From: Gammaproteobacteria bacterium
Lineage (GTDB): Bacteria > Pseudomonadota > Gammaproteobacteria > Ga0077536
Assembly: GCA_030429865.1 (NCBI GenBank)
Contig: JAUIFX010000010.1
Location: 1 to 43,739, forward strand
Length of the DNA: 43,739 bases
Direction of reading: 5' to 3'
The notes below the pieces were generated by a model, which ran no database searches, was not told the origin of the DNA, and was given only the letters and a program-made list of their open reading frames with translations. The position numbers and the translations under genes were made by a program. Below, piece by piece: positions 15,519-38,868 of this stretch. Numbering within the stretch: the stretch's first letter is position 1; each line of letters begins with the position of its first letter.

Positions 15519-16673
15519 TCAGTCGAAACTGTCGAGCGCGTCGAGATCGTCGATCGCCACGCACGTGCGGCGAATGAACTCGAGCGAGGTTTCCGGCGGC
15601 TGCATCTTGGGCGCGTCCGGCGGCTGGCCGAGGGTTCCGGACCACCAGGCGAGTGCGGCGAACAGCTGCTGGCGATACCAGGTGAAGGTCTGCTCGAAAT
15701 CGAGGCGCGGACCGCCGCGCGCGGCGAGCTCCTCGATGTAGTAGGCGAGCAGGTCACGTTCCCATTCGCGGCGCTTCTCCGGCACCACGGCGGTGGCGAT
15801 GCAGTAGGCGAGATCGCGGCTGCCGTTGCCCTGCGCCGAGTTCTGCCAGTCGTTGATGCCCATCTCGCCGTCGGGCCGGATGAACCAGTTCTTCAGGTGC
15901 ACGTCGTTGTGCGTCATGTGCCGCGGCATGACCTCGTGCATGTCGGCGGCCTTGAGCGTAGCCGGCCACACCTCCGGCTCACGCGCGAACAGGCGCGGCG
16001 GCACCACGGCCTCGGCTTCGGTGAAGCCGCGGATACAGGAATCCTCGAAACCGGCATCGAAGGCGGTGACGCGGAAGAATGTCTCCCATTTCGAGAAACA
16101 GGCGAGCTTGCCGGTGAGTTCGGGACTCTCATAGTACCTGCCGTGCAGCTGCGCGAGCAGGCGCATCTGGCTCTGGCAGTGCGCGTAATCGAGATCGGTC
16201 TGCATGGTGCAGAAATCGACCTTCTCGCTGAGGTCCTCGAGCACGACGATCGAGTTCAGGGTCGCGGGATCGTAGCGCGCAAACAACGGCGGCGGCGCGA
16301 TGACACCGACCTCGGGATACATGACGTTGTAGAAGTTCACCTCCGCCTGCACACCTTCGTTCATGCCCAGCATGTAGCGGCTCTCGAGACTCTGCGTGCC
16401 CTTGCAGAATACGCTCGCCGGCAAGCCGGCCTGCTGCCCGGCTTCGTTCCAGGTGATGTAGATGAAGCGCCGGTTCGAGGTACCGTCGTCACGCGGCCCG
16501 AGTTCATGGCTCACGACCTCGGCGCCCGGTACGCCACGGCCGAGCACGTCACCGAGCCAGGCCGGGGTGATCGATTCGTAGGTCGGCGGCATGTCGGCCG
16601 CGGTCATCGGCGTGATCGGGTTGCGCTGCTCTCGTTCGAAGCGCCGCTTGATTTCATCGAAAGTGATCGGCAT
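15519..16673 (-). CDS. APH/EcKinase-like phosphotransferase family protein
   Basis: 384 residues. It has a kinase-like fold with the catalytic loop HNDVHLKNWF (Asp as base) and the metal-binding INDWQN, plus an N-lobe stretch VVSHELGPRDDGTSNRRFIY. Spacing and the SIVVLEDLSE and AQLHGRYY segments resemble the ecdysteroid-kinase/DUF1679 and fatty-acid-degradation-associated APH groups rather than true aminoglycoside resistance enzymes. Substrate unknown; probably a small hydroxylated molecule (inference). It is the first gene of a pair with marR. The start at 16673 lies 64 bases from a perfect 12-bp palindrome that is the likely operator. Confidence 0.82.
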   Translation of the reverse strand: MPITFDEIKRRFEREQRNPITPMTAADMPPTYESITPAWLGDVLGRGVPGAEVVSHELGPRDDGTSNRRFIYITWNEAGQQAGLPASVFCKGTQSLESRYMLGMNEGVQAEVNFYNVMYPEVGVIAPPPLFARYDPATLNSIVVLEDLSEKVDFCTMQTDLDYAHCQSQMRLLAQLHGRYYESPELTGKLACFSKWETFFRVTAFDAGFEDSCIRGFTEAEAVVPPRLFAREPEVWPATLKAADMHEVMPRHMTHNDVHLKNWFIRPDGEMGINDWQNSAQGNGSRDLAYCIATAVVPEKRREWERDLLAYYIEELAARGGPRLDFEQTFTWYRQQLFAALAWWSGTLGQPPDAPKMQPPETSLEFIRRTCVAIDDLDALDSFD

Positions 16674-17710: not shown

Positions 17711-18877
17711 ATGACGACCATTCTCTACGACGATCGCGTGAGCGCGGTCGACGCGCGCGCGGACGGCGCGCACCTGTGGCTCGAGCCCGACGCGCTCGAG
17801 CGCGCAACCGGCTGGAAACTCGAACCCGAGGGGCTGTGCCGCGGAGATGCCTGCGTGCAGGCACGGACGGCATGGCGCGACGATGCGGGTCGCGTCGACC
17901 TCGCCGCCTTCGCCGCCCACCTCGGACAGCCGATGATCGCCGACGACGATGCCGTGGCCTTCGGTGCGAGCGTCAACGCGCTGCGCGAAGACCTGCTGTC
18001 GACGATGGCACCGGACTTCACGCTGCCCGATCTCGACGGCAACCTGCACAGCCTGTCGGACTATCGCGGCAAGAAGGTCTTTCTCTACTCCTGGGGCTCT
18101 TACTGAGGCTGCAGCTTCGACTTGCCCGTGTGGCAGGTTATCTACGAAGAGCTGCGCGACCAGGGTCTCGAAATCATCGCCGTCGCGTTCGACACCGCCG
18201 GCCGTGCCGCGGTCGAACCCAAGATCCGGGCCGCCGACATTGCCGAGCGCCCGGCCATGCTCGCCGGCCTCATGGGCTGGGATGACGCGCTATGGGCGCG
18301 CCAGACGCCACCGACCTATCCCTGCCTGATCGACGAAACCCACCTCGTCGCCGAGCTGTACGGTATGACCAACGTACCGCAGGCGGTGTGGATCGACGAG
18401 CAGGGCCGCATCGTGCGGCCGGCCGAATCGGCCGGTACCATCGACATGGTTCGCCACCTCAACCGCGAGACGCTGGAGTTGCCGGACGCCGCGGTGGCCG
18501 AAGGCGCCGAGGCGCGCAACGCTTATATCGCGGCGCTGCGCGACTGGGTGCGCCGCGGCGCCGACAGCCCCTACGCGCTGCCGGCGGCGGAAGTGAAGCG
18601 GCGCCTGCGCGGTCCCGGCGAGGCCGAAGTGCGCGCCGCGACGCACGTCAAGCTGGGCCGGCACTTCTACGCCAGCGGCGCCCTGGCGCAGGCCAAGCGG
18701 CATTTCGACGAGGCGGTGGCGCTGTGCCCGGATTCGTGGAACTACCGGCGGCAGTCGATGATGCTCGACCCGGAGAACGTCGGCCAGCTGAACGCCGGAC
18801 CGGACTTCTGGGCCGCGGTCGACGCCCTCGGCGACGAGCCGTACTACCCGCCGGCCGACCTCGCCCCGGTGCGCTGA
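17711..18877 (+). CDS. ResA/redoxin-like selenoprotein candidate (in-frame TGA = Sec132)
   Basis: One frame runs from the ATG at 17711 (AAGGAG eight bases upstream) to 18877, interrupted only by TGA at 18104-18106. Read through, it gives 388 residues. Residues about 96-240 form a thioredoxin-like redoxin domain (APDFTLPDLDG, then KVFLYSWGSY-U-GCSFDLPVWQ, later NVPQAVWID with the cis-Pro). The TGA falls at the peroxidatic or first redox Cys, giving a WxxxUGC motif. A two-part hairpin directly after the TGA fits a bacterial SECIS. The C-terminal 100 residues are TPR-like and the first 95 hold an LCRGDACV pair of Cys. Homologues with Cys at this site would confirm it. Likely a thiol oxidoreductase or peroxidase; no signal peptide is seen. 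The genome must carry selA, selB, selC and selD, none in this window. Confidence 0.85.
18104..18154 (+). promoter_or_regulatory. bacterial SECIS-like element after the selenocysteine TGA
   Basis: Lower stem: CAGCTTCG (18112-18119) pairs with CGAAG (18145-18149) and CTG (18152-18154), with a 2-base bulge. Upper stem: CTTGCC (18121-18126) pairs with GGCAGG (18132-18137) with one G-T wobble. The apical loop is CGTGT; its G at 18128 is 22 bases after the TGA. Bacterial SECIS hairpins have a G near the start of a small apical loop about 16-37 bases past the UGA, so position and loop both fit. Confidence 0.75.
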
Positions 18878-21046: not shown

Positions 21047-24000
21047 ATGAGCAATATTCCTGACGAGCACGAATCGGGGCTGCTCGATCCTGGCCGGACA
21101 TCCGTGCCGCCCGATGATCGTGAGGACGGCCCGGGCCTGCGCTTCTTGCGTCCGTTCGTCACGCCTTTGCTGTTCCGGGGAGGCGACGCGCCGGCAACGA
21201 CGTTCGGCGCGGTCGCCCAGATCGATATCGGGGGATTCACGCGCGCGGTCGAAGAGTATTCGCAACAGGGCTCGCGTGCGCTCGAGGCACTCGCCACCCT
21301 CATTGGCGGATGTTTCGATGTCCTCGTCGGCACCGTGAACCGGTACGGTGGCGCGGTGCATACGTTCCCGGGCGATGGGGTGGTGGCCGTTTGGGAAGCT
21401 CCCGAGGACGGCTTGTACGACGTCGTCCGGAGCGCGCGGGAGTGTGCGCGGGAACTCGCCGGAAGTTTCCCGACCGCGCGGCGCTTTTCCCTCAAGGCCG
21501 GCGTGGGCGCGGGACCGCTCACGATTCTCACACTCGGCGAACCCGGGAGTCGCCGAGAGGTCCTCGTGACGGGATCGGCAATGTCCGATGCTGCCGCTGC
21601 GCTGCGCCGGGCAGGTGGTGGACAAACGGTGCTCGCCCCATCCGCAGAGCGCTTCGCCCCGCATGGCAGGAAAGATCGCGACGCCCTGTCGCTCACCGGC
21701 TACGCGACCCGAGCCCCCATTTCGGTCATCACGGCCACGCCCGGCATCGGCACATTCGAGGCCGCGAGCCTGCTCGATTTCATGCCGCGGCTCGTTCGCG
21801 AGCGTCTCCAGTCGGGGATCGATGCGTGGATGGGAGAGTTTCGTAACGTATCGACCATTTTCGCCGAGATCGGTGCCGGAGAACCTGCGACACCGGATTC
21901 GACGCGCACGGCCTACGCGCTCATGCAGGAATGCATGCAGCAGTACGCTGGCACGATCGTGCAGTTTTGCCACGACGACAAGGGCCTCGTTTCGGTCATG
22001 GCGTTCGGCGCGGAAACCAGTCACGAGGACGACGCCAACCGGGCGCTGCTCGCGAGTTTCTCGCTACGCGAGGGCCTTGCCGGCGCCGGTCTGGATAGCG
22101 CGATCGGCGTATCCACGGGGCGGGTCTTCAGTGGCCTGCTCGGGGGCCAGGCACGCATGGAATTCCGCCTGATCGGCCGCGCTGTCAATCACGCTGCGCG
22201 ACTGATGAATGCGCGCCAGGCGATACTCTGTGACGGCGCCACGAAGAACCTCGCGACGGATTTCCATTTTGCCACCCCGGTCACGTTCAGCGATCGCAAA
22301 GGACGATTGTCGGCGCACAAACCGCTCGCCCGGTCGACCAGGACCTGGATGCTCCCCGCCTGTTTCCGGCGCAGTGAAAGCGAAACCCCGGTATGCGGCA
22401 GAACCAGCGAGATCGCGCGCGCTGAAGCCTGGCTGGCACAGCTGCAAAGCCCGCCGCACGACAGCCCCCGGGTCCTGGCACTCGTCGGCGAGGCAGGGAT
22501 CGGCAAGACCCGGCTCGCCACGCATCTCGCGCACAAGGCCGAAACGTCGGGGCTGCGCGTGGTTGCCAGCCAGAACCAGGAGGCGGGGCCCAAGGTGGGT
22601 CTTTACGCCTTTCGCCCGATCCTCGAACAACTGTTCGATCTCGGCGAACGGACACCCGAAGATGGCAGGCGCCTGCTCCGGGAAGCCGTGGTCAACGCTA
22701 CCGGCTCATCCGACCTGGCGCCGCTGCTCAACGACCTTTATCCGCTGGCCCTGCCCGACAACCCGGTGACCTCGGATCTCTCGGGAGCCGACCGCGCCGC
22801 CAATCGCCTCGCACTGCTTGCACGCCTCTTGCAAGCGGGCACCAGTCCCACGTCCTCGCGGGACGCGGCAACCCTGGTGTTTCTCGAAGATGCACACTGG
22901 ATGGATCCGGCTTCGTGGACCCTGCTCGACGTGCTCTGCTCCGCTTCGGAAGCCCGCATCTACTTCGTCTTGACGCTGCGCCCTCTGCCGGATGCCTCGC
23001 AACGCGTCGCGGCGCTGCTCGGGAGCGGCTGCGCGCAGACCTTGGAACTGGGCCCGCTGGGGCGTTCCGACACCTCCAAGCTCGTCGCCACCTATCTCGG
23101 CGTGAGCCAGGCAACGCCGCAGCTCGTCGCGATGGTCGAGCGTCGTGCAGAAGGCAACCCCCTGTTCTCGCGCGAAATCGTGCGGTCGCTGGTCGACCGC
23201 TCGCTGATCGTCATCACGGGCCGGACCGCGCGCCTCGCCGGCTCCGTCAGCCCCGCCGCGAGCGTCGTTCCCGATTCCATCGAAAAGCTCGTGCGGGCCC
23301 GGCTCGATCGGCTGAGCGTCAAAAGGCAATGGCTTCTGAAGTGCGCCAGCGTGATTGGCCTGCGTTTCGAGCAGTCCCTCCTGGAATCGTTTCCCGACGC
23401 GGCGCCCCTGGGTCGCCTGGAGGACGATCTTGCGGCCTTGGTCGATGAAGAGTTGATCGAGAGATGCGCCGAACAGAGGAGCCCGATGTTCGCGTTCCGA
23501 CACACCACCATCCGCGATGTCGTGTACGCGACGCTGTTGTTCGAGCAGCGCCGGAACCTGCACATCGCTGTCGCCATGGCGCTCGAGAACGGCCCCGAAG
23601 CGGACGGGCAGGCACTCGCCATTTTCGATCATTGGCGTTCAGCCGGCGAGGGGTGGCGTGCCCTGCGCTACGTCGCCCGCGATGGCGAGAAGGCGCTACA
23701 CGGGGGCGATTACTATGCTGCTCGCGAGTACTTCGCCTACGGCGTGTCCGCGCTCGCCGGGATCGATGACGAGAACGAGCAGCGGCGGCGTGCACACTGG
23801 AACCAGAAGCTGGGCGAAGCCCTGGTGGCACTCGGCCGGCACGAGCAGGCACGCGTACACCTCGAAGCGGCCTTGCGGAATCTCGGCGAGGCGGTGCCTC
23901 GAAGCCGCATCGCCGTATCGCTACGGACTGTTATCGAGTTCGCCTGGCAGTGGGGGCGGCGCCGATTCAGCGTCCCGCGGAAAACGCATGAAGCCGATGA

Positions 24001-25129
24001 CTCGATGAGCGAGCGCGCCGAGATCTACGAACAGCTCGGCTATGTGTTCTACGCTTCGGGCGACACGCTGCGTGGCATTCATGCCGCGTTCGGCATGCTC
24101 AATCGCGCCGAGCAGGGGACTGCCGACGCGGTTCGCGCGCGCGCCTACGCGGCCATGGGCCTGACGGCGAGCGTCACGCCCCTCAGGCGCCTGGCCGAAC
24201 ACTACGAAACCGCCGCGTATCGCACCGCCACGTCCATCGACGATCGCGCCGTATCCGGTTGGGTGGAGTGGATAGCATCGCTGCGCGCCGCTGGAGAGGG
24301 CCGTTGGACCGATGTGCTCGAGAAGACCGACCGCGCCATCGATACGGGGCGCGTCGGCACGGCGTCCCGACTGGTGGTCATGGCGAGCTTGACCCGCGCA
24401 TGGGCGTTGCGTGTGCAAGGCGAACTCGGGGAAGCCATGGAACTGGCGGCCCTGGCCCTGCAACTGGGACGCGGCCACGGCAATCATCTGTGGGAAGCGT
24501 GGGCCTACCTGATCGAGGCGGAATGCCACCTTGCCCGTCGCGCCTACGAGGCGACGATTCGTTGCAGCCAGCGCGCTCTCGCCATCCTCATCGAAGAATC
24601 GGACCGTACGGAAGAAGCGCGAGCCCGCGGCCTGATGGCCGCTGCGTTATTCGCCCAGGGGCAAGAGCGTAAAGCCTTGCTCGCGGCCGAGGAGTGCGAG
24701 CGGGTGCTGCGCAAACTCGACCTGACCAGCTTTGTCATGCTGGAGGGGTTTGCCGGGGTTGCGGAGGTTCACGTGGCGCGTTGCGAGTTGGCTGTCGAGC
24801 AAGAGAGGGTTCGCGCTCCTCGCCGCCTGATGCGCAAGGCACAGGCGGCATGCCAGGGCCTGAACCGGTTTGCCCGCGTGTTTCCGGTCGCGAAACCCCG
24901 AGCGCTGCAAATGCAGGGACGGTTGGAGATCGCGGCCGGACGGCAGCGCGCCGCGATGAAGCGCTTCGCGCAAGCGCTCGAGGTCGCGGAGCAGCTGGAC
25001 ATGCCGCGCGAGAGTTCGCTCGTTTCGCAGGTGCTCGAGCGCAACTACCTGGTGATCCCGCAGGAAATGCGGCGCGGAACGGACAGGGCCCGCAGGACGC
25101 GTGGGTCGAAGCAGACCGGGAGCACGTGA
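21047..25129 (+). CDS. soluble-adenylyl-cyclase-like protein: two cyclase domains, AAA ATPase, TPR tail
   Basis: 1360 residues arranged like mammalian soluble adenylyl cyclase. Cyclase domain 1 (about 52-230) keeps both metal Asp (D60 in AQIDIGGF, D110 in FPGDGVVAVW). Cyclase domain 2 (about 265-440) has Glu in place of the first Asp but keeps the transition-state pair N381 and R385 in VNHAARL and the sAC-like DDKG segment. A STAND/AAA module follows (Walker A GEAGIGKT 481-488; Walker B VFLEDAHW 611-618). The last 450 residues are helical repeats. The base-reading Lys and Thr of sAC appear as T106 and R374 by eye alignment, so the nucleotide product is uncertain. Its TGA overlaps the GTG of the next gene, which indicates coupled translation. 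It probably acts as a cytosolic signalling or regulatory ATPase for the adjoining isoprenoid enzyme (inference). Confidence 0.9.
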   Translation: MSNIPDEHESGLLDPGRTSVPPDDREDGPGLRFLRPFVTPLLFRGGDAPATTFGAVAQIDIGGFTRAVEEYSQQGSRALEALATLIGGCFDVLVGTVNRYGGAVHTFPGDGVVAVWEAPEDGLYDVVRSARECARELAGSFPTARRFSLKAGVGAGPLTILTLGEPGSRREVLVTGSAMSDAAAALRRAGGGQTVLAPSAERFAPHGRKDRDALSLTGYATRAPISVITATPGIGTFEAASLLDFMPRLVRERLQSGIDAWMGEFRNVSTIFAEIGAGEPATPDSTRTAYALMQECMQQYAGTIVQFCHDDKGLVSVMAFGAETSHEDDANRALLASFSLREGLAGAGLDSAIGVSTGRVFSGLLGGQARMEFRLIGRAVNHAARLMNARQAILCDGATKNLATDFHFATPVTFSDRKGRLSAHKPLARSTRTWMLPACFRRSESETPVCGRTSEIARAEAWLAQLQSPPHDSPRVLALVGEAGIGKTRLATHLAHKAETSGLRVVASQNQEAGPKVGLYAFRPILEQLFDLGERTPEDGRRLLREAVVNATGSSDLAPLLNDLYPLALPDNPVTSDLSGADRAANRLALLARLLQAGTSPTSSRDAATLVFLEDAHWMDPASWTLLDVLCSASEARIYFVLTLRPLPDASQRVAALLGSGCAQTLELGPLGRSDTSKLVATYLGVSQATPQLVAMVERRAEGNPLFSREIVRSLVDRSLIVITGRTARLAGSVSPAASVVPDSIEKLVRARLDRLSVKRQWLLKCASVIGLRFEQSLLESFPDAAPLGRLEDDLAALVDEELIERCAEQRSPMFAFRHTTIRDVVYATLLFEQRRNLHIAVAMALENGPEADGQALAIFDHWRSAGEGWRALRYVARDGEKALHGGDYYAAREYFAYGVSALAGIDDENEQRRRAHWNQKLGEALVALGRHEQARVHLEAALRNLGEAVPRSRIAVSLRTVIEFAWQWGRRRFSVPRKTHEADDSMSERAEIYEQLGYVFYASGDTLRGIHAAFGMLNRAEQGTADAVRARAYAAMGLTASVTPLRRLAEHYETAAYRTATSIDDRAVSGWVEWIASLRAAGEGRWTDVLEKTDRAIDTGRVGTASRLVVMASLTRAWALRVQGELGEAMELAALALQLGRGHGNHLWEAWAYLIEAECHLARRAYEATIRCSQRALAILIEESDRTEEARARGLMAAALFAQGQERKALLAAEECERVLRKLDLTSFVMLEGFAGVAEVHVARCELAVEQERVRAPRRLMRKAQAACQGLNRFARVFPVAKPRALQMQGRLEIAAGRQRAAMKRFAQALEVAEQLDMPRESSLVSQVLERNYLVIPQEMRRGTDRARRTRGSKQTGST

Positions 25130-27012
25130 GCGTGTTGTGCGATGACCGCAGGGATGCGCTCTTCTCGACCGTGCGCGACATGCTCTCCGCGTGCGGCATC
25201 CCGCGGCGGCAGGCTGACGTCTTCGAACGGGTCATTGCGCGCAGCGAACGCACCGCGACGCGCTGCGAGGTGTTTCTTCCCGCGGATCTTCCGTTCGCCG
25301 TCGCGGCAGCAGCCGGTATCGGCGAAGACGTTGCCACGCGGGCGGCGGCCGTGGCGACAGTGATATGGTCGGGTGCCGACCTGATGGACGACGCAGCGGA
25401 TGGCGACCTGCGCCTCGACGATTGGGGTGCGAGTTCTCACCAACTCGCTCTCGTCTATACGAACCTGCTGGCGACGCTACCCCACCTCATGGTGGAGGAC
25501 GCGCCGTCGCAAGGATTCAGCCGGTGCCTGGCGGAGTCGTTATGGCTGATGAGCCACGGGCAGTTCAGCGACCTGGAAAGCGCGACTGCCGTACAACGCG
25601 GCGAGGACTATCTCGATGTCATCGCACTCAAGACCGGCGCCGAGGCTGCGTTCTTTGCCCAGCTCCCCCTGCTCATGGCAGCAGCCCCGGAGCCGACTCG
25701 CAGGCCATGGGAGACGTTCGGACTCCATATCGGGTGCATGCTGCAGTTGTTCTCGGACATCTATGGCACGCTCATCGATGAGCCGGGCAATGATCTCTTG
25801 CGAGGTAAGCGCACGTTGCCGGTCACGCACGCCCTGACGATGCTCGACGGCCCGGATCGCGACGCCTTCGTCGCCGCGCTGGTTCGGGTTGGCAGCGGTG
25901 ATCGCGAACCCTTGCCGTGGCTAATCGAGCGAATGCAGGAATGCGGCTCCGCGCAAGCTGCACTCGTGCAACTGGAGCGCTTTCGCTTCCGCGCGGCCGC
26001 GACGTTGCCGGTTGCGCTGGACGAGTTCCCGCGCAGCCACCCGTTGTGGCGTTTGTTGAAGAGTTGCTGGCTTCTCGGAGCGCTCGAGTCCGAGGCGTCA
26101 TGGCCCGCAGCGCGCACCGAGGAAGCCCCGGCAAGCGGGACGCCGCCGGCTGCGCCCCGCCCACCCCCGCGCGCCGGCGGGGCGAACCATGCGCAACTGG
26201 TCGCCAGCTATTACGACGCGCATACCGAGCCGTTCTACCTGCGCTTGTGGGACGAGGAAGACATCCATTTCGGCCGGTTCGATGACCACGCGAGTACGCT
26301 CGGACCGGCCCTGAAATCGATGACGGAAGCCATCGTCGCGCCGGCAGGCATCCGTTCCGGTGAAATGGTGGTGGACGCGGGCTGTGGCGTGGGGGGGGCC
26401 GCGTTGGACGTTGCGCGCGCGTACGGGGCCCGCGTGCTCGGCATGACCATCAGTCCTCGACAAGTCGCGCTCGCGCGCGAGCGCGCCGCGCGGGCCGGCC
26501 TGGCGGATCAAGCGCGGTTCGTCGTTGCCGACTGCTCCCGGGAGCTGCCCTTGGACGATGGCTCGGTCGACGTGCTCATCAGCATCGAGGCGGCTTGCCA
26601 CCTGCCTGACAAGGAACGGTTCGTCCGCGAGTGCTGGCGCGTCCTGCGCCCGGGTGGCCGTCTCGTCGGCAGCGACTGGATGCGCACGGCACGGGCGACT
26701 ACTTCGACTGCGCAACGCGCGCTGACGGCGGTGGAACAGGCCTGGCACCTCGGCGGCCTGCTCAGCGGCAGCCGATGGTTCGACTTGCTGAGTGGCGCCG
26801 GTTTCGCGCGTGTCGAGTTCGAGGATTTCGGGGACAGCGTGTTACCGAACGCGCGCCTGCTCGCGCAGGCGCGCCTGGACCTGATGCTCGAGCGCGCCGC
26901 GGGAAAGGACGGTGGCCCGGACGGGGAACTGTGGGTGATGCAGTGCACGACGTTGGCGAATGCCTGGCTCGCGGGCTGGTTCACGGTTGGCCGCTTTCGC
27001 GCCCTCAAGTAG
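25126..27012 (+). CDS. isoprenyl-diphosphate-synthase-like domain fused to C-methyltransferase
   Basis: 628 residues from a GTG at 25126 (GTGA overlap with the cyclase stop; GTG at 25132 is an alternative). Residues about 15-320 show the trans-prenyltransferase order: DDAAD (88-92) as first Asp-rich motif, GQFSDL, KTGAEAAFF (169 on) and SDIYG (210-214) where the second DDxxD belongs, then GNDLLRGKRTLPVTHAL. The RRG of ordinary synthases is missing and the second motif keeps one Asp. A Pro/Ala linker (about 327-352) leads to a SAM methyltransferase (355-628) with VVDAGCGVGGAALDVA, MTISPRQVALARERA, IEAACHLPDKERF and RVLRPGGRLVGSDW, closest in pattern to gamma-tocopherol/sterol C-methyltransferases. 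It may make or bind a prenyl diphosphate and methylate it or a product (inference). A terpene-cyclase-like role of the first domain is possible. Confidence 0.85.
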   Translation: MSVLCDDRRDALFSTVRDMLSACGIPRRQADVFERVIARSERTATRCEVFLPADLPFAVAAAAGIGEDVATRAAAVATVIWSGADLMDDAADGDLRLDDWGASSHQLALVYTNLLATLPHLMVEDAPSQGFSRCLAESLWLMSHGQFSDLESATAVQRGEDYLDVIALKTGAEAAFFAQLPLLMAAAPEPTRRPWETFGLHIGCMLQLFSDIYGTLIDEPGNDLLRGKRTLPVTHALTMLDGPDRDAFVAALVRVGSGDREPLPWLIERMQECGSAQAALVQLERFRFRAAATLPVALDEFPRSHPLWRLLKSCWLLGALESEASWPAARTEEAPASGTPPAAPRPPPRAGGANHAQLVASYYDAHTEPFYLRLWDEEDIHFGRFDDHASTLGPALKSMTEAIVAPAGIRSGEMVVDAGCGVGGAALDVARAYGARVLGMTISPRQVALARERAARAGLADQARFVVADCSRELPLDDGSVDVLISIEAACHLPDKERFVRECWRVLRPGGRLVGSDWMRTARATTSTAQRALTAVEQAWHLGGLLSGSRWFDLLSGAGFARVEFEDFGDSVLPNARLLAQARLDLMLERAAGKDGGPDGELWVMQCTTLANAWLAGWFTVGRFRALK

Positions 27013-33956: not shown

Positions 33957-34246
33957 CACGAGGCGCTCGATGTGGGACAGGAGGTCGCGGGCGCGCCGGT
34001 GGCCGCCGCCGGCGGGACGTGCACAAGCGCGCGCCTCGGCTATGATAACGGGAGTGGGTGTCCTGCGCGTCCCGCCCGGCGCGCGTCGCGCTCACCAGCA
34101 CCGGATGCGGGCACCCGCGCGCGGGCCAGGCATCCCGGCGAGGCCTGGTGATCGGCGCTCACCCGGCGCGATGCGGGCGGGCCGGTCGCTCGTTGAAAGC
34201 GGGCGCGGCGGGTACCGGGGAAAACTCTCCACGCAGGAGTCGTCGC

Positions 34247-35131
34247 ATGACACGGAACGGTTCGTCGAACGTCACTTCCCGACACGCCGATGCACGCCGG
34301 CCGGCGTCTCGTACGCTCGCAGTCGCCGTCGCCGGCGTCCTGTGCCACGCTGCGGACGTCGCGGCGCTCGACTGCGCAGCCATCCCTGACGACGAAGCCC
34401 GGCGCTGCTGCGCACTGAGCCTGCCTGCGCAGAGCATGACGCAAACACTGCGCATCACCCTGGCCGACGCCCAGGGAACGTTGCGCGAGATCGCCGGCGA
34501 CCTTGCCTGGAAGCGCCTCGAGGACGGCCGCGCGGGCGTGCGCATCGAGGTCACCGAACCGGCGTCCGATGCCGGCAAGACCGCGTTGCTGGTCCAGCGC
34601 ATCGACGAAGACGACCTGCGCGCCGGTGCGCGTGCCTACGTCTACGATCCTGGACAACGGCGCGACCGCCTGATCAGCGTCGACGTGCTGTCCGGAGAGC
34701 TACTGGGCCTGGGAATCAGTTACGAGGATTTCGCGGTCATTTTCGGCGCACGCAACGATCTCGAATTCAAGCGTCTTCCCGACGAGGAATTGGACGGCCG
34801 CCAGGCCATCGTCATCGAGGCGACACCTCGGGATGCCGATGCGGCCTTCGATGCCGGCATGGTGTATTCGCGCATCGTCGCGCGTTTCGACAACGAGCGC
34901 TGTGTTCCGCTCGATACCCGCTTCTACGAGCAGGGTAGCGAACCGCGCAAGCTGCTGCGCGCCGATCCGGCCGAGATCCGCGAGCACGCTGGGCGCTGGG
35001 TTCCCCACCGTCTCACCCTCGAGGAGACGGGCGCAGACACGCGGACGACCATCGGCGTCGAAGCGGTGGCTTTCGACCCGGAGCTGCACGACGTGCTGTT
35101 CAACCGTTCGTCACTGAAACGCGGACGTTGA
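34247..35131 (+). CDS. LolA-like outer-membrane lipoprotein-sorting family protein
   Basis: 294 residues from the ATG at 34247 (CAGGAG ten bases upstream). An N-terminal export signal ends near VAALD (about residue 41). The mature part is the incomplete beta-barrel of the LolA/DUF4292-like group (TLRITLADAQG; AYVYDPGQRRDRLISVDVLSG; GRQAIVIEATPRD; VPLDTRFYEQGSEPRKLLRAD). Proteins of this type are usually encoded next to MMPL/RND exporters and are thought to carry a lipid across the periplasm. The MMPL gene follows after 16 bases, so the two form one transport unit. Cargo unknown. Confidence 0.85.
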   Translation: MTRNGSSNVTSRHADARRPASRTLAVAVAGVLCHAADVAALDCAAIPDDEARRCCALSLPAQSMTQTLRITLADAQGTLREIAGDLAWKRLEDGRAGVRIEVTEPASDAGKTALLVQRIDEDDLRAGARAYVYDPGQRRDRLISVDVLSGELLGLGISYEDFAVIFGARNDLEFKRLPDEELDGRQAIVIEATPRDADAAFDAGMVYSRIVARFDNERCVPLDTRFYEQGSEPRKLLRADPAEIREHAGRWVPHRLTLEETGADTRTTIGVEAVAFDPELHDVLFNRSSLKRGR

Positions 35132-35147: not shown

Positions 35148-37868
35148 GTGCGTGCCCGCGCCATCACGCTCGCGCTGCGCTACCCGGCGCTGCTCGTCGC
35201 CGCGGCGGCACTGCTCACGACGCTCAGCCTGACCCGGCTGGTCGATCCCGCGACCGGGCAGCTCCGGCTCGGCATCGACAGCACGCTCTCCGGCCTGCTA
35301 CCGCGGACGGGCGCGGCGCTCGACACCTACGCCCGCACTGCGCAGCGCTTCGGCAGCGACGACGTCGTGTATGTCGCATGGCTGTCCGACGAACTGTTCA
35401 GCCGCGACGTGCTGCAACGTTTGAAGCGGCTCGCGCGCGACCTGTCACGCATCGAGGGCGTGCGCGCAGTCGACAGCCTCGCCGGTGCGACACGGGTGCA
35501 AGTCGACGACGATCTCGTCGAGGTCACCCGACTGCTCGCAGGCCTGCCGCGGACGGAGAAAGGACTTGCGAAGCTGGCCGCGGACGCGCGCGCCGATCCG
35601 CTGCACGGTCCGCAGCTGCTGACGACAGACGGCAACGGCACGCTGCTGGTCGTGCACCTGGCAGACGCACTGGACGCCGCCGCCCTCGCGCGCACGCTCG
35701 ATGCCATCGGCACCGCGTCCGAAACGCGCGCCAGCGGCGCGCCCGTGCGGGCGCTCGTTACCGGCCCGGTCGTCGCCCGCCTCGCCCTCGGCGGCGCGCT
35801 GTTCGACGACGTACGCCGCGCCCTGCCACTGGCGGTGCTGGTCACGGCGCTCATCGCCGCGCTGACCCTGCGCAGCGTGCGCGGTGTCGTTCTGCCCCTC
35901 GCCGCCACCGGCAGCGCACTCGCGGTAACGCTCGCGGTGTTCGCAGCGCGCGGCCATGCGTTCAATTTCGTGACCGTCATCGTCCCGCCGGTCATTTTCG
36001 TGGTCGGCTTCGCCCTGGCCGTGCATGTCATCAACGCGTTCGACACCGCTTTTCGAGCTGCCGGCGAGAAGCGCGACGCACTCGTCGAGACCATGCGCGA
36101 GCTGTGGCAACCCCTGTCCCTGACCGCCTTCACGACCGCGATCGGCTTTGCCTCCCTGGCGACCAGCAATATCGAGTCCATCCGCCTCTTCGGAATCTAT
36201 ACCGCGCTCGGAACCGTGACGGCGTGGATGGCGGCCTTTTTCCTGATCCCGGCCGCTCTTGCGCTGTGGCCGGCACGTGTCCTCGTGCGAGCCGGCACCG
36301 GCCCACTCGCGGCACTTGGCCCCGCGCTCGCGCGCTTCGACATGCGCCACCGCCGCTTCATCCTGGCCGGTGCCGCGGTGCTCGCCCTGGCCTCTGCCGT
36401 GCTCGCGACGCGCATCGAGGTGAGCACCGACTACCTGGCGAACTTCAGCGCCTCCAGCGCGGTACGACAGGATTACGAGACCGTACGCGATGCCTTCGGC
36501 GGCGCCAACCCGTTGCAGGTCATCGTGACGAGCGAGTTGCCGCAAGCGTTCGCCGACCCTGTTCATCTTGGTGCCATCGAGACCCTGGAGCAGACGCTCG
36601 AGCGCCGACCCGACATCAACAACGTGACCAGTGTCGTCGATTTCATCGAGACCGTGCGCCGCGCTCTCGCGCCGGAAGCCGCCACCACGCGCCGCGTGCC
36701 CGATTCACGCGAAGCCATCGAGGACGTCATGGAACTGGGCGCGGGCGAAGCGCGTGACCGCTTCGTCGATCGGCGCTTCTCGGCCACCGTGCTGCACGTC
36801 ACCACCCCTGCGGTCGCGACGCGTGAGCTGGCGCAGGTCATCGCGGGCATCGAGACGGCCCTGGAAGCCCTGCCGCCGCACCTGCACGGCGAGGTCACGG
36901 GCGGCACGGCGCTCATCGCACGCACGCTCGACGAGATCGTGCGCGGCCAGCTCGTCAGCCTCGGCGGCGCGCTGCTGGTCATCTACGGCATTCTCTACCT
37001 CCTGTTCGGCTCCGCACGCGTGGCAGCCGTCGCCCTGCTGCCCAATGCCCTGCCCATCGTCGCGTTCTTCGGCGTGCTCGGCGCAAGCGGGATCACGCTC
37101 AACCTCGCGACCAGCCTGGTCGCCTCGGTCGTCCTCGGCATCGCGGTCGACGACAGCATCCATTTTCTCTCTCGATTCAACGCCGAGGCGAGACGCAGCG
37201 GGCGCGAGGATGTCGGCATCGAGCGCGCGCTCGCGGCCGTCATTAGACCGGTCACGTTCACCACCATCGCGCTCTGCGCCGGCTTCGCCACGCTCACCAC
37301 CGGCGAGTTGACGAGTCAGATCGAGTTCGGCGCACTCGCCGCCGCCGTCCTGTTCCTCGCCTGGGTGTTCGATCTCACCTTCACGCCGGCGATCGCGACC
37401 CGCTTGCGCTTCGTCACGCTGTGGGAAACGCTCACTGCCGACCTCGGCGCGGCGCCCCACGAGACGATCCCGCTGTTTCGCGGGCTCACCCACCGCCAGG
37501 CCCGCATCGCGGCGATCCTGGGCCAGAGCGTGGAACATCCTGCCGGCACGCGCGTCATCACGCTCGGCGATCCCGGGCACGACGTGCATATCGTCATCGA
37601 CGGCGAACTCGCCGCCAGCGTGCCACGGGACGATCGCGACGTGCTGCTACGTCACATGAGCCGCGGCGACCTCATCGGCGAGGTCGCGCTGTTCGCCGGC
37701 AAGCGCACGGCCAACGTCGACGCGGTCAGCGACGTACGCCTGATTCGCTTCGACCAGGCCGCCCTCGACCGCATCGCAACCCGCTACCCGCGCATTGCGA
37801 GCGTACTCTACCGCAATCTCGGCGCGGTGCTGGCAGAGCGGCTGGCGGATGTGACTGCGCAGTTGTGA
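35148..37868 (+). CDS. MMPL/RND exporter fused to a cyclic-nucleotide-binding domain
   Basis: 906 residues from a GTG at 35148. The first 760 are an MMPL/RND transporter: TM1 at 13-30, periplasmic loop, TM2-6 at about 225-385, a second copy with TM7 near 408 and TM8-12 at about 600-760. SVVLGIAVDDSIHFLSRFN carries the Asp pair used for proton relay in this family. The extra C-terminus (about 770-895) is a cNMP-binding/Crp-N domain with the phosphate-binding cassette GEVALF...RTANV (G844, E845, R853, T854). It lies in the cytoplasm after the last helix and could gate or tether the pump. Coupled to the LolA-like gene, and a Crp regulator gene follows at 38143. Substrate probably a lipid (inference). 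Confidence 0.9.
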   Translation: MRARAITLALRYPALLVAAAALLTTLSLTRLVDPATGQLRLGIDSTLSGLLPRTGAALDTYARTAQRFGSDDVVYVAWLSDELFSRDVLQRLKRLARDLSRIEGVRAVDSLAGATRVQVDDDLVEVTRLLAGLPRTEKGLAKLAADARADPLHGPQLLTTDGNGTLLVVHLADALDAAALARTLDAIGTASETRASGAPVRALVTGPVVARLALGGALFDDVRRALPLAVLVTALIAALTLRSVRGVVLPLAATGSALAVTLAVFAARGHAFNFVTVIVPPVIFVVGFALAVHVINAFDTAFRAAGEKRDALVETMRELWQPLSLTAFTTAIGFASLATSNIESIRLFGIYTALGTVTAWMAAFFLIPAALALWPARVLVRAGTGPLAALGPALARFDMRHRRFILAGAAVLALASAVLATRIEVSTDYLANFSASSAVRQDYETVRDAFGGANPLQVIVTSELPQAFADPVHLGAIETLEQTLERRPDINNVTSVVDFIETVRRALAPEAATTRRVPDSREAIEDVMELGAGEARDRFVDRRFSATVLHVTTPAVATRELAQVIAGIETALEALPPHLHGEVTGGTALIARTLDEIVRGQLVSLGGALLVIYGILYLLFGSARVAAVALLPNALPIVAFFGVLGASGITLNLATSLVASVVLGIAVDDSIHFLSRFNAEARRSGREDVGIERALAAVIRPVTFTTIALCAGFATLTTGELTSQIEFGALAAAVLFLAWVFDLTFTPAIATRLRFVTLWETLTADLGAAPHETIPLFRGLTHRQARIAAILGQSVEHPAGTRVITLGDPGHDVHIVIDGELAASVPRDDRDVLLRHMSRGDLIGEVALFAGKRTANVDAVSDVRLIRFDQAALDRIATRYPRIASVLYRNLGAVLAERLADVTAQL

Positions 37869-38142: not shown

Positions 38143-38868
38143 ATGAACGCGCCACGGCCAGTTGCTCTCAGCGCGCATACCCTCGCAGCCCTCGAACTGT
38201 TCGCGAACCTGCCGCCAGCCGAGCGCGATGCCATCGCGCAGACGATGCGGGCGCGGCGCTACGCGCCGGGTGAGCTGGTTTTCTCCCAGAACGACGGTTC
38301 CAGCGACGTGCATTTCATCGTCAGCGGTCGCGCACGCGTCACCTACTACTCCGGTCACGGCAAGGAAATCGCGTTTCGCGAGCTCCTTGCGGGAAAGACT
38401 TTCGGCGAACTCGCCGCCCTTGACGCGGGCCCCCGCTCGGCACGCGTCGAAGTGATCGAAGAATCGATCATCGCACGCCTCGAACGTGGCGACTTCCTCG
38501 CCCTGCTGTCACGTCAGCCACAAATCGCGTTCGACGTCATGCGCGAGCTTGCCTGCACGGTACGCCGCCTGTCCGATCGCGTCATCGAATTCAGCACCAT
38601 CGGCGTACGTGAGCGCCTGCATGCGGAACTGTTGAGGCTCGCCGAGCGCGGCGAAACCGTCGATAACGAAGCGCGCATTCGAAACTGTCCGACGCACAGC
38701 GCTCTCGCCACTCACATCAGCACGCACCGCGAGGCGGTATCGCGAGAGCTGAGTGCGCTCAAGCGAGCCGGCTTGCTGCGCAAGGAGAAGGGCGTGCTGA
38801 TCATTACCGATCTCGCGCGCTTGACGGACATGGTCGTGGCCGCGCGGCGGGAAAGCGCGGCCGGCTGA
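38143..38868 (+). CDS. Crp/Fnr-family transcriptional regulator, cAMP-type
   Basis: 241 residues. The N-terminal cNMP domain has the cassette GELA...GPRSARV (G88, E89, R98, S99), which matches cAMP-binding Crp rather than Fnr; there is no N-terminal Cys cluster. A long dimer helix is followed by the winged helix THSALATHISTHREAVSRELSALKRAGLL. It likely controls genes in response to cAMP or a related nucleotide. The gene follows the MMPL-cNMP gene by 274 bases; that gap holds a CCGCAC/GTGCGG hairpin (38073-38090) of unknown role. The palindrome at 38987-39002 is a plausible binding site. Confidence 0.93.
   Translation: MNAPRPVALSAHTLAALELFANLPPAERDAIAQTMRARRYAPGELVFSQNDGSSDVHFIVSGRARVTYYSGHGKEIAFRELLAGKTFGELAALDAGPRSARVEVIEESIIARLERGDFLALLSRQPQIAFDVMRELACTVRRLSDRVIEFSTIGVRERLHAELLRLAERGETVDNEARIRNCPTHSALATHISTHREAVSRELSALKRAGLLRKEKGVLIITDLARLTDMVVAARRESAAG

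Follow-up and report, generated by a model that had tools for sequence, protein, structure and literature searches.

A soluble adenylyl cyclase-like gene coupled to a gene for an isoprenyl diphosphate synthase-family and methyltransferase fusion protein in a gammaproteobacterium

What does a protein do in which a domain of the isoprenyl diphosphate synthase (IDS) family and an S-adenosylmethionine (SAM)-dependent methyltransferase (MT) are joined in one chain, and what does it mean that its gene is tied to a gene for a protein resembling soluble adenylyl cyclase (sAC)? The question is raised by a locus on contig JAUIFX010000010.1 (assembly GCA_030429865.1) of a gammaproteobacterium, a stretch of 43,739 nucleotides that was analyzed as a whole and is called the window hereafter. 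The two genes are a real and unusual orphan pair, apparently new in its layout, although both halves have known families. The best explanation, to which we give a probability of about 0.45, is that a sAC-like signalling ATPase is coupled to a two-domain, non-elongating terpenoid enzyme. The most interesting point of the locus is the altered active site of the IDS domain, which is absent from a preliminary description of this DNA.

The locus is a two-gene operon, in which two open reading frames (ORFs) of 1360 and 628 codons follow each other in tandem:

21047..25129, plus strand: sAC-like protein, 1360 amino acids (profile searches, ADCY10 structure match)
25126..27012, plus strand: fusion protein, 628 amino acids (ORF, profile searches)
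25119..25134, plus strand: junction with GGAG at 25119-25122, GTG at 25126, TGA at 25127-25129 and an alternative GTG at 25132 (direct reading)

The GTG of the fusion gene (25126-25128) shares bases with the stop codon TGA of the cyclase gene (25127-25129), so that the 4-base GTGA overlap and both ORFs are found as the preliminary description had them. An in-frame GTG at 25132 is better spaced from GGAG than GTG 25126 is, and the fusion may start there, 2 bases past the cyclase stop; with either start, that is, with an overlap or with a 2-base gap, the genes are coupled, and the translational coupling proposed earlier stands. No sigma-70 promoter-like or terminator-like sites above chance were found between 20700 and 27300. 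The matches to Polyprenyl_synt and Methyltransf_11 share one stop-free frame with a proline/alanine-rich linker between them, and the G + C content by codon position is similar across the cyclase, IDS and MT parts. Because of this agreement and the open frame, the fusion is unlikely to be a stitching artefact.

The IDS-family domain, whose motifs were read from an alignment with canonical IspB-type IDSs, includes the following features, isopentenyl diphosphate being abbreviated IPP and the first and second aspartate-rich motifs FARM and SARM:

25126..26100, plus strand: IDS-family domain, residues 1-325 (profile, alignment, predicted fold)
25252..25368, plus strand: region of the lost IPP site, without GGKR and with W81 for the conserved His (alignment)
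25387..25401, plus strand: FARM, DDAAD, residues 88-92, kept (alignment)
25630..25635, plus strand: KT motif, K169-T170, kept (alignment)
25753..25779, plus strand: altered second metal motif (SARM), SDIYGTLID, residues 210-218, in place of DDxxD (alignment)
25804..25821, plus strand: GKRTLP, residues 227-232, with the conserved lysine K228 (alignment)

Residues 108-245 match Polyprenyl_synt (PF00348) with 42.5 bits against a cut-off of 27. The canonical trans-IDS features that are present are the family profile, the FARM DDAAD and the diphosphate-binding lysines K169 and K228, and those that are absent are the second DDxxD/N, replaced by SDIYG (210-214), the IPP-binding GGKR and the His. There is no GGK within residues 1-330, the first lysine being K169, and the IPP His is aligned to W81 at a place where the alignment is uncertain. 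This stretch of 330 residues has merely three lysines, two of which are K169 and K228. SDIYGTLID has the form SDxxGxxxD, which is similar to the NSD-type motif N/DDxxS/TxxxD/E without matching it. With its IPP site gone and no DDxxD left in the SARM, the domain most likely does not elongate and carries out other chemistry. The earlier designation of the protein as an isoprenyl synthase and methyltransferase fusion therefore holds as to an IDS-family domain (PF00348 above its cut-off) and a SAM-dependent MT in one chain, and is not supported as to a strict prenyl synthase.

A comparable loss has been described in IDS-like terpene synthases, which were derived from IDSs in insects (MhTPS) and fungi. 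In MhFDPS the change of KKxR to SDAW abolishes IDS activity, candidate fungal enzymes were found by means of an NDxxS-type second motif, and the NSD-type triad is not strictly required (PMC7484799). The same work recognizes such enzymes by IDS descent together with loss of the basic IPP-binding motif, and both are found in the fusion (PMC7484799). Like the insect and fungal enzymes, the domain combines IDS ancestry with an altered second metal motif; unlike them, it comes from a bacterium, is known here from its sequence, and has SDxxGxxxD instead of the NDxxS form. From the long-chain trans-IDSs of the IspB type (octa- and decaprenyl diphosphate synthases), with which it shares the profile, the predicted fold, FARM, KT and GKxTLP, it differs by lacking GGKR and the IPP His, by the SARM SDIYG, by a deletion after FARM and by the fused MT. 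The domain thus looks like a non-elongating domain of the IDS-like terpene synthase type, and because the pattern of losses resembles that of these synthases, an enzyme acting on one allylic diphosphate is favored. To our knowledge, none of the IDS-like terpene synthases of insects and fungi is fused to a methyltransferase.

The AlphaFold2 (AF2) model of the domain was built from an alignment of the query and three IDS rows, and its match to IDS folds is hence not independent. Its leading Foldseek and VIA matches were trans-IDSs and one fungal chimeric synthase containing an IDS; no stand-alone class I terpene synthase was among the matches listed, which is no proof of difference. The same genome has three other IDSs with ordinary aspartate-rich motifs, so the fusion should be dispensable for core isoprenoids.

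The remainder of the fusion consists of the linker and the MT domain:

26101..26187, plus strand: proline/alanine-rich interdomain linker (direct reading)
26188..26895, plus strand: class I SAM-dependent MT domain with VDAGCGVGG at 26371 and IEAACH at 26584 (profile searches)

About residues 355-590 match Methyltransf_11 with 87.5 bits (cut-off, 21.2). The nearest solved relatives of the MT domain (METHYLTRANSFERASE) are MitM (113 bits), PDB entry 3bus, which we take to be RebM (109 bits), and a glucose O-methyltransferase (92 bits), whereas the solved prenyl-type methyltransferases scored lower: geranyl diphosphate (GPP) methyltransferase (GPPMT), 36 bits; BezA, 46 bits; and the C6-farnesyl diphosphate (FPP) methyltransferase, 28 bits. 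Assignment as GPPMT was tried and rejected (NF041943, 52.9 bits against a cut-off of 400). The RebM/MitM-type small-molecule methyltransferases are stand-alone proteins, in contrast to the MT here, which is joined to an IDS-like domain. The closest stand-alone MT found is 40% identical and belongs to a genome of another family (G658), in which no isoprenoid genes were recognized around it by eye. Prenyl diphosphate methyltransferases are so diverse in sequence (GPPMT and FPPMT share 16.9% identity; PMC7862628) that similarity neither shows nor excludes C-methylation. The MT domain is nearer to RebM and MitM than to any known prenyl diphosphate C-methyltransferase, and C-methylation by it is unproven.

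Taking these features together, the IDS-derived domain, descended from trans-prenyl diphosphate synthases, most likely holds a single allylic prenyl diphosphate by means of DDAAD with magnesium and of K169 and K228, and would ionize it and then cyclize, eliminate or transfer rather than elongate. The attached MT would act either first, methylating the prenyl diphosphate, or last, methylating the product, and the sAC-like protein probably makes a cyclic nucleotide upon some signal. Should the IDS domain prove to be a terpene synthase, it would be a bacterial case of the switch from IDS to terpene synthase known from insects and fungi, and one already joined to an MT; it would offer a compact route to noncanonical (methylated) terpenoids and a way to test how such a switch comes about. 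Moreover, the coupling to the sAC-like protein would tie terpenoid output to cyclic nucleotide signalling, and the system consists of two single genes that are open to expression and assay.

None of the genome sets searched has a relative of the fusion, which is thus an orphan there. No homologue was found in 58 relatives, 398 genomes of the phylum, all 36 genomes of the family in the collection and 369 of the class (the sets overlap), nor in the plasmids and viral contigs searched. Phyla beyond that of the host were covered by exact peptide patterns rather than by sensitive search; across all GTDB species of the collection these gave no fusion, near-exact matches of 8 residues being needed, so that distant relatives could be missed. 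Their sole match fell in a short part of a different methyltransferase-like gene, which lacks the fusion. The only sister genome (G001) has an assembly gap at the position of the fusion, where one contig (C274) ends inside the cyclase gene and another (C419) resumes in a subtilase gene. No paper on an IDS and methyltransferase fusion was found in the open literature searched, and the earlier statement that no system with this layout has been described is borne out to that extent.

The sAC-like protein has these parts:

in 21047..25129, plus strand: two class III cyclase-type domains (C1 and C2), about residues 20-205 and 255-420
in 21047..25129, plus strand: AAA_16 ATPase, residues 449-640 (Pfam)
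in 21047..25129, plus strand: TPR-like C-terminal half
22487..22510, plus strand: Walker A motif of the AAA_16 domain, GEAGIGKT
21224..21376, plus strand: C1 metal-binding aspartates D60 (QIDIGGFT) and D110 (PGDGVVAVW), and T106 (ADCY10 alignment)
21980..22201, plus strand: C2 K312, N381 and R385, kept, and R374 instead of Thr405 (ADCY10 alignment)

The sAC-like label given earlier is confirmed by this layout of C1, C2, ATPase and TPR and by the top PDB match, human ADCY10, which covers both cyclase domains (E 8.5e-19). In Pfam, AAA_16 scored 62 bits and the TPR and Guanylate_cyc matches were weak, and the top NCBIfam model was TOMM_kin_cyc (TOMM kinase/cyclase fusion; 152 bits, under its cut-off). 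The catalytic residues were placed by the ADCY10 alignment and by comparison with two-domain relatives. K312, N381 and R385 are kept, and their roles are presumably those known for class III cyclases in general. D60 and D110, which correspond to Asp47 and Asp99 of human sAC, are kept as well. In human sAC these two bind metals, Thr405 contacts adenine, and Lys95 and Arg176 are the bicarbonate residues (PMC12250328). The protein shares its domain layout, the metal-binding aspartates and the catalytic Lys, Asn and Arg with ADCY10 and the bacterial sAC-like cyclase-AAA-TPR proteins, and it differs from ADCY10 in that the alignment places R374 at Thr405, T106 at Lys95 and A183 at Arg176. Judged from these residues, a cyclase output is plausible, the identity of the nucleotide is uncertain, and control by bicarbonate is unlikely. 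In the sister species the cyclase gene lies at the syntenic place and is 93% identical in its N-terminus, which evolves under purifying selection (ratio of nonsynonymous to synonymous substitution rates, dN/dS, 0.116 over 349 codons compared, with no stops among them).

Cyclic nucleotide (cNMP)-binding proteins are recurrent neighbors of the cyclase relatives. In one genome (G016), the gene for an MMPL transporter that carries a cNMP domain, a homologue of the one in the window, stands directly before three sAC-like cyclases, and in two others (G472 and G604) two-domain sAC-like genes adjoin small cNMP-binding proteins. The window itself has, 8-11 kb downstream of the operon, a gene for an MMPL/HAE3-type transporter with a C-terminal cNMP-binding domain (35148-37868, plus strand), followed by one for a CRP-type regulator (38143-38868, plus strand); such effectors nearby were counted in favor of the best explanation. 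A LolA-like gene (34058-35131) is directly upstream of the transporter gene. On another contig (G032:C173, L107 736-3129), a Na/sulfate symporter-type transporter with an N-terminal cNMP-binding domain is encoded beside a sAC-like gene.

Several readings compete with that of a non-elongating terpenoid enzyme. An active, chain-elongating prenyl synthase might hand GPP or FPP to a prenyl diphosphate C-methyltransferase in the same chain; such a chain would be sensible, as an engineered Erg20p-GPPMT fusion raises the yield of 2-methyl-GPP (PMC10881772), and the Polyprenyl_synt match, FARM and both lysines fit it. However, with GGKR, the IPP His and the second DDxxD lost and an MT that falls short of the GPPMT model and lies nearest to RebM and MitM, we consider this account, which is also that of the preliminary description, quite improbable. 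The retention of the allylic diphosphate ligands without the IPP site, and the small-molecule methyltransferases nearest to the MT, would equally suit a domain that transfers the prenyl group to an acceptor other than IPP, in the manner of ComQ or of meroterpenoid chemistry, with the MT methylating the same acceptor, but no acceptor-making genes were recognized nearby and we think it unlikely. The loss of two usual motifs, with no conservation demonstrable, would also agree with a pseudoenzyme that binds or scaffolds while the MT alone is catalytic; this is doubtful, for an exact DDxxD, KT and GKxTLP retained in a drifted, lysine-poor domain argue for kept catalysis. The preferred reading of a non-elongating terpenoid enzyme has its own difficulties. 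The GGKR region aligns poorly and R42 or R46 might stand in for the lysine, which is likewise missing in another IDS of the same genome (GGAR); the weak AF2 model has a pLDDT of 57, and of 39 without the alignment, which consisted of IDSs; without any homologue of the fusion, conservation of the motif losses is not checkable; the operon does not lie within a terpene gene cluster; and the Arg at the place of Thr405 makes ATP cyclization uncertain.

The coupling to the cyclase may, furthermore, be incidental, with no shared pathway, a view that can be combined with each of the accounts of the fusion given above. Genes of the sAC-like class are numerous: in the family there are about 25 such loci, where the cyclase mostly stands as a single gene and the neighbors differ, no isoprenoid enzyme being recognized among them by eye. 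The full-length relatives found in other families, at 27-29% identity, are likewise diverse in their surroundings, and none has the fusion. Against this stand the overlap or 2-base gap, the synteny of the cyclase gene and the selection upon it in the sister species, and two cases from elsewhere. In another family (G587:C35, L099 10531-16171), genes for an FAD oxidase, a different, zinc-ribbon/cyclase/AAA protein and a UbiA prenyltransferase are joined by 4-base ATGA overlaps and a methyltransferase gene lies close by, a second and separate pairing of a cyclase with isoprenoid enzymes, and one full-length relative (G610) is convergent with an RPE65-family carotenoid oxygenase-like gene; these are single cases picked after looking and make no statistical association. 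We hold incidental coupling to be somewhat less likely than not; under the best explanation the coupling would serve co-regulation of the two genes.

The locus had been likened to the operons for 2-methylisoborneol (2-MIB), which are said there to carry genes for cNMP-binding proteins. In 2-MIB-type operons, the proteins that bind cNMP are family 2B encapsulin shells, which take terpene cyclases as cargo and are accompanied by C-methyltransferases (PMC8346489). These shells presumably are what the cNMP-binding genes in cyanobacterial operons for 2-MIB encode, and for this reason such operons are no direct precedent for a cyclase as partner and the parallel does not carry over. The 2-MIB operon (GPPMT, methylisoborneol synthase and family 2B encapsulin) has in common with the present one an isoprenoid enzyme with a SAM-dependent methyltransferase and the cyclic nucleotide theme, whereas here no GPPMT is recognized by profile, neither terpene cyclase nor shell is seen, and a cyclase takes the place of the cNMP-binding shell. 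Neither a class I terpene cyclase (PF19086) nor a SrpI-like encapsulin shell with a cNMP domain (PF19307) gave a match in this genome, both of which are weak negatives as the control genomes were also silent. A bolder picture is a one-chain homoterpene synthase, in which the MT would add a carbon to the prenyl diphosphate, after which the IDS-derived domain, turned into a terpene synthase of bacteria, would ionize and cyclize it, the whole being tied to the sAC-like protein and read out by two proteins encoded 8 to 11 kb downstream, the cNMP transporter and the CRP-type regulator; we regard it as a long shot.

Other genes in the window are also worth recording. A selenoprotein of the ResA/AhpC redoxin type is encoded at 17711-18877 on the plus strand, with an in-frame TGA at 18104-18106 (SWGSY-U-GCSFDLPVWQ). 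Both the TGA and the frame are kept in the sister species (94.6% identity), and tRNA-Sec and SelB are together on one contig (C237). The protein matches NCBIfam NF041054 (WAxxUGC_long) just over its cut-off and is thus a member of a known family. In addition, an ecdysteroid kinase-like (EcKL/APH) protein is encoded, in a bacterium, at 15519-16673 on the minus strand, and the genes near it, for a short-chain dehydrogenase/reductase (SDR), a CoA-transferase, a luciferase-like monooxygenase and an acyl-CoA ligase, suggest a catabolic cluster.

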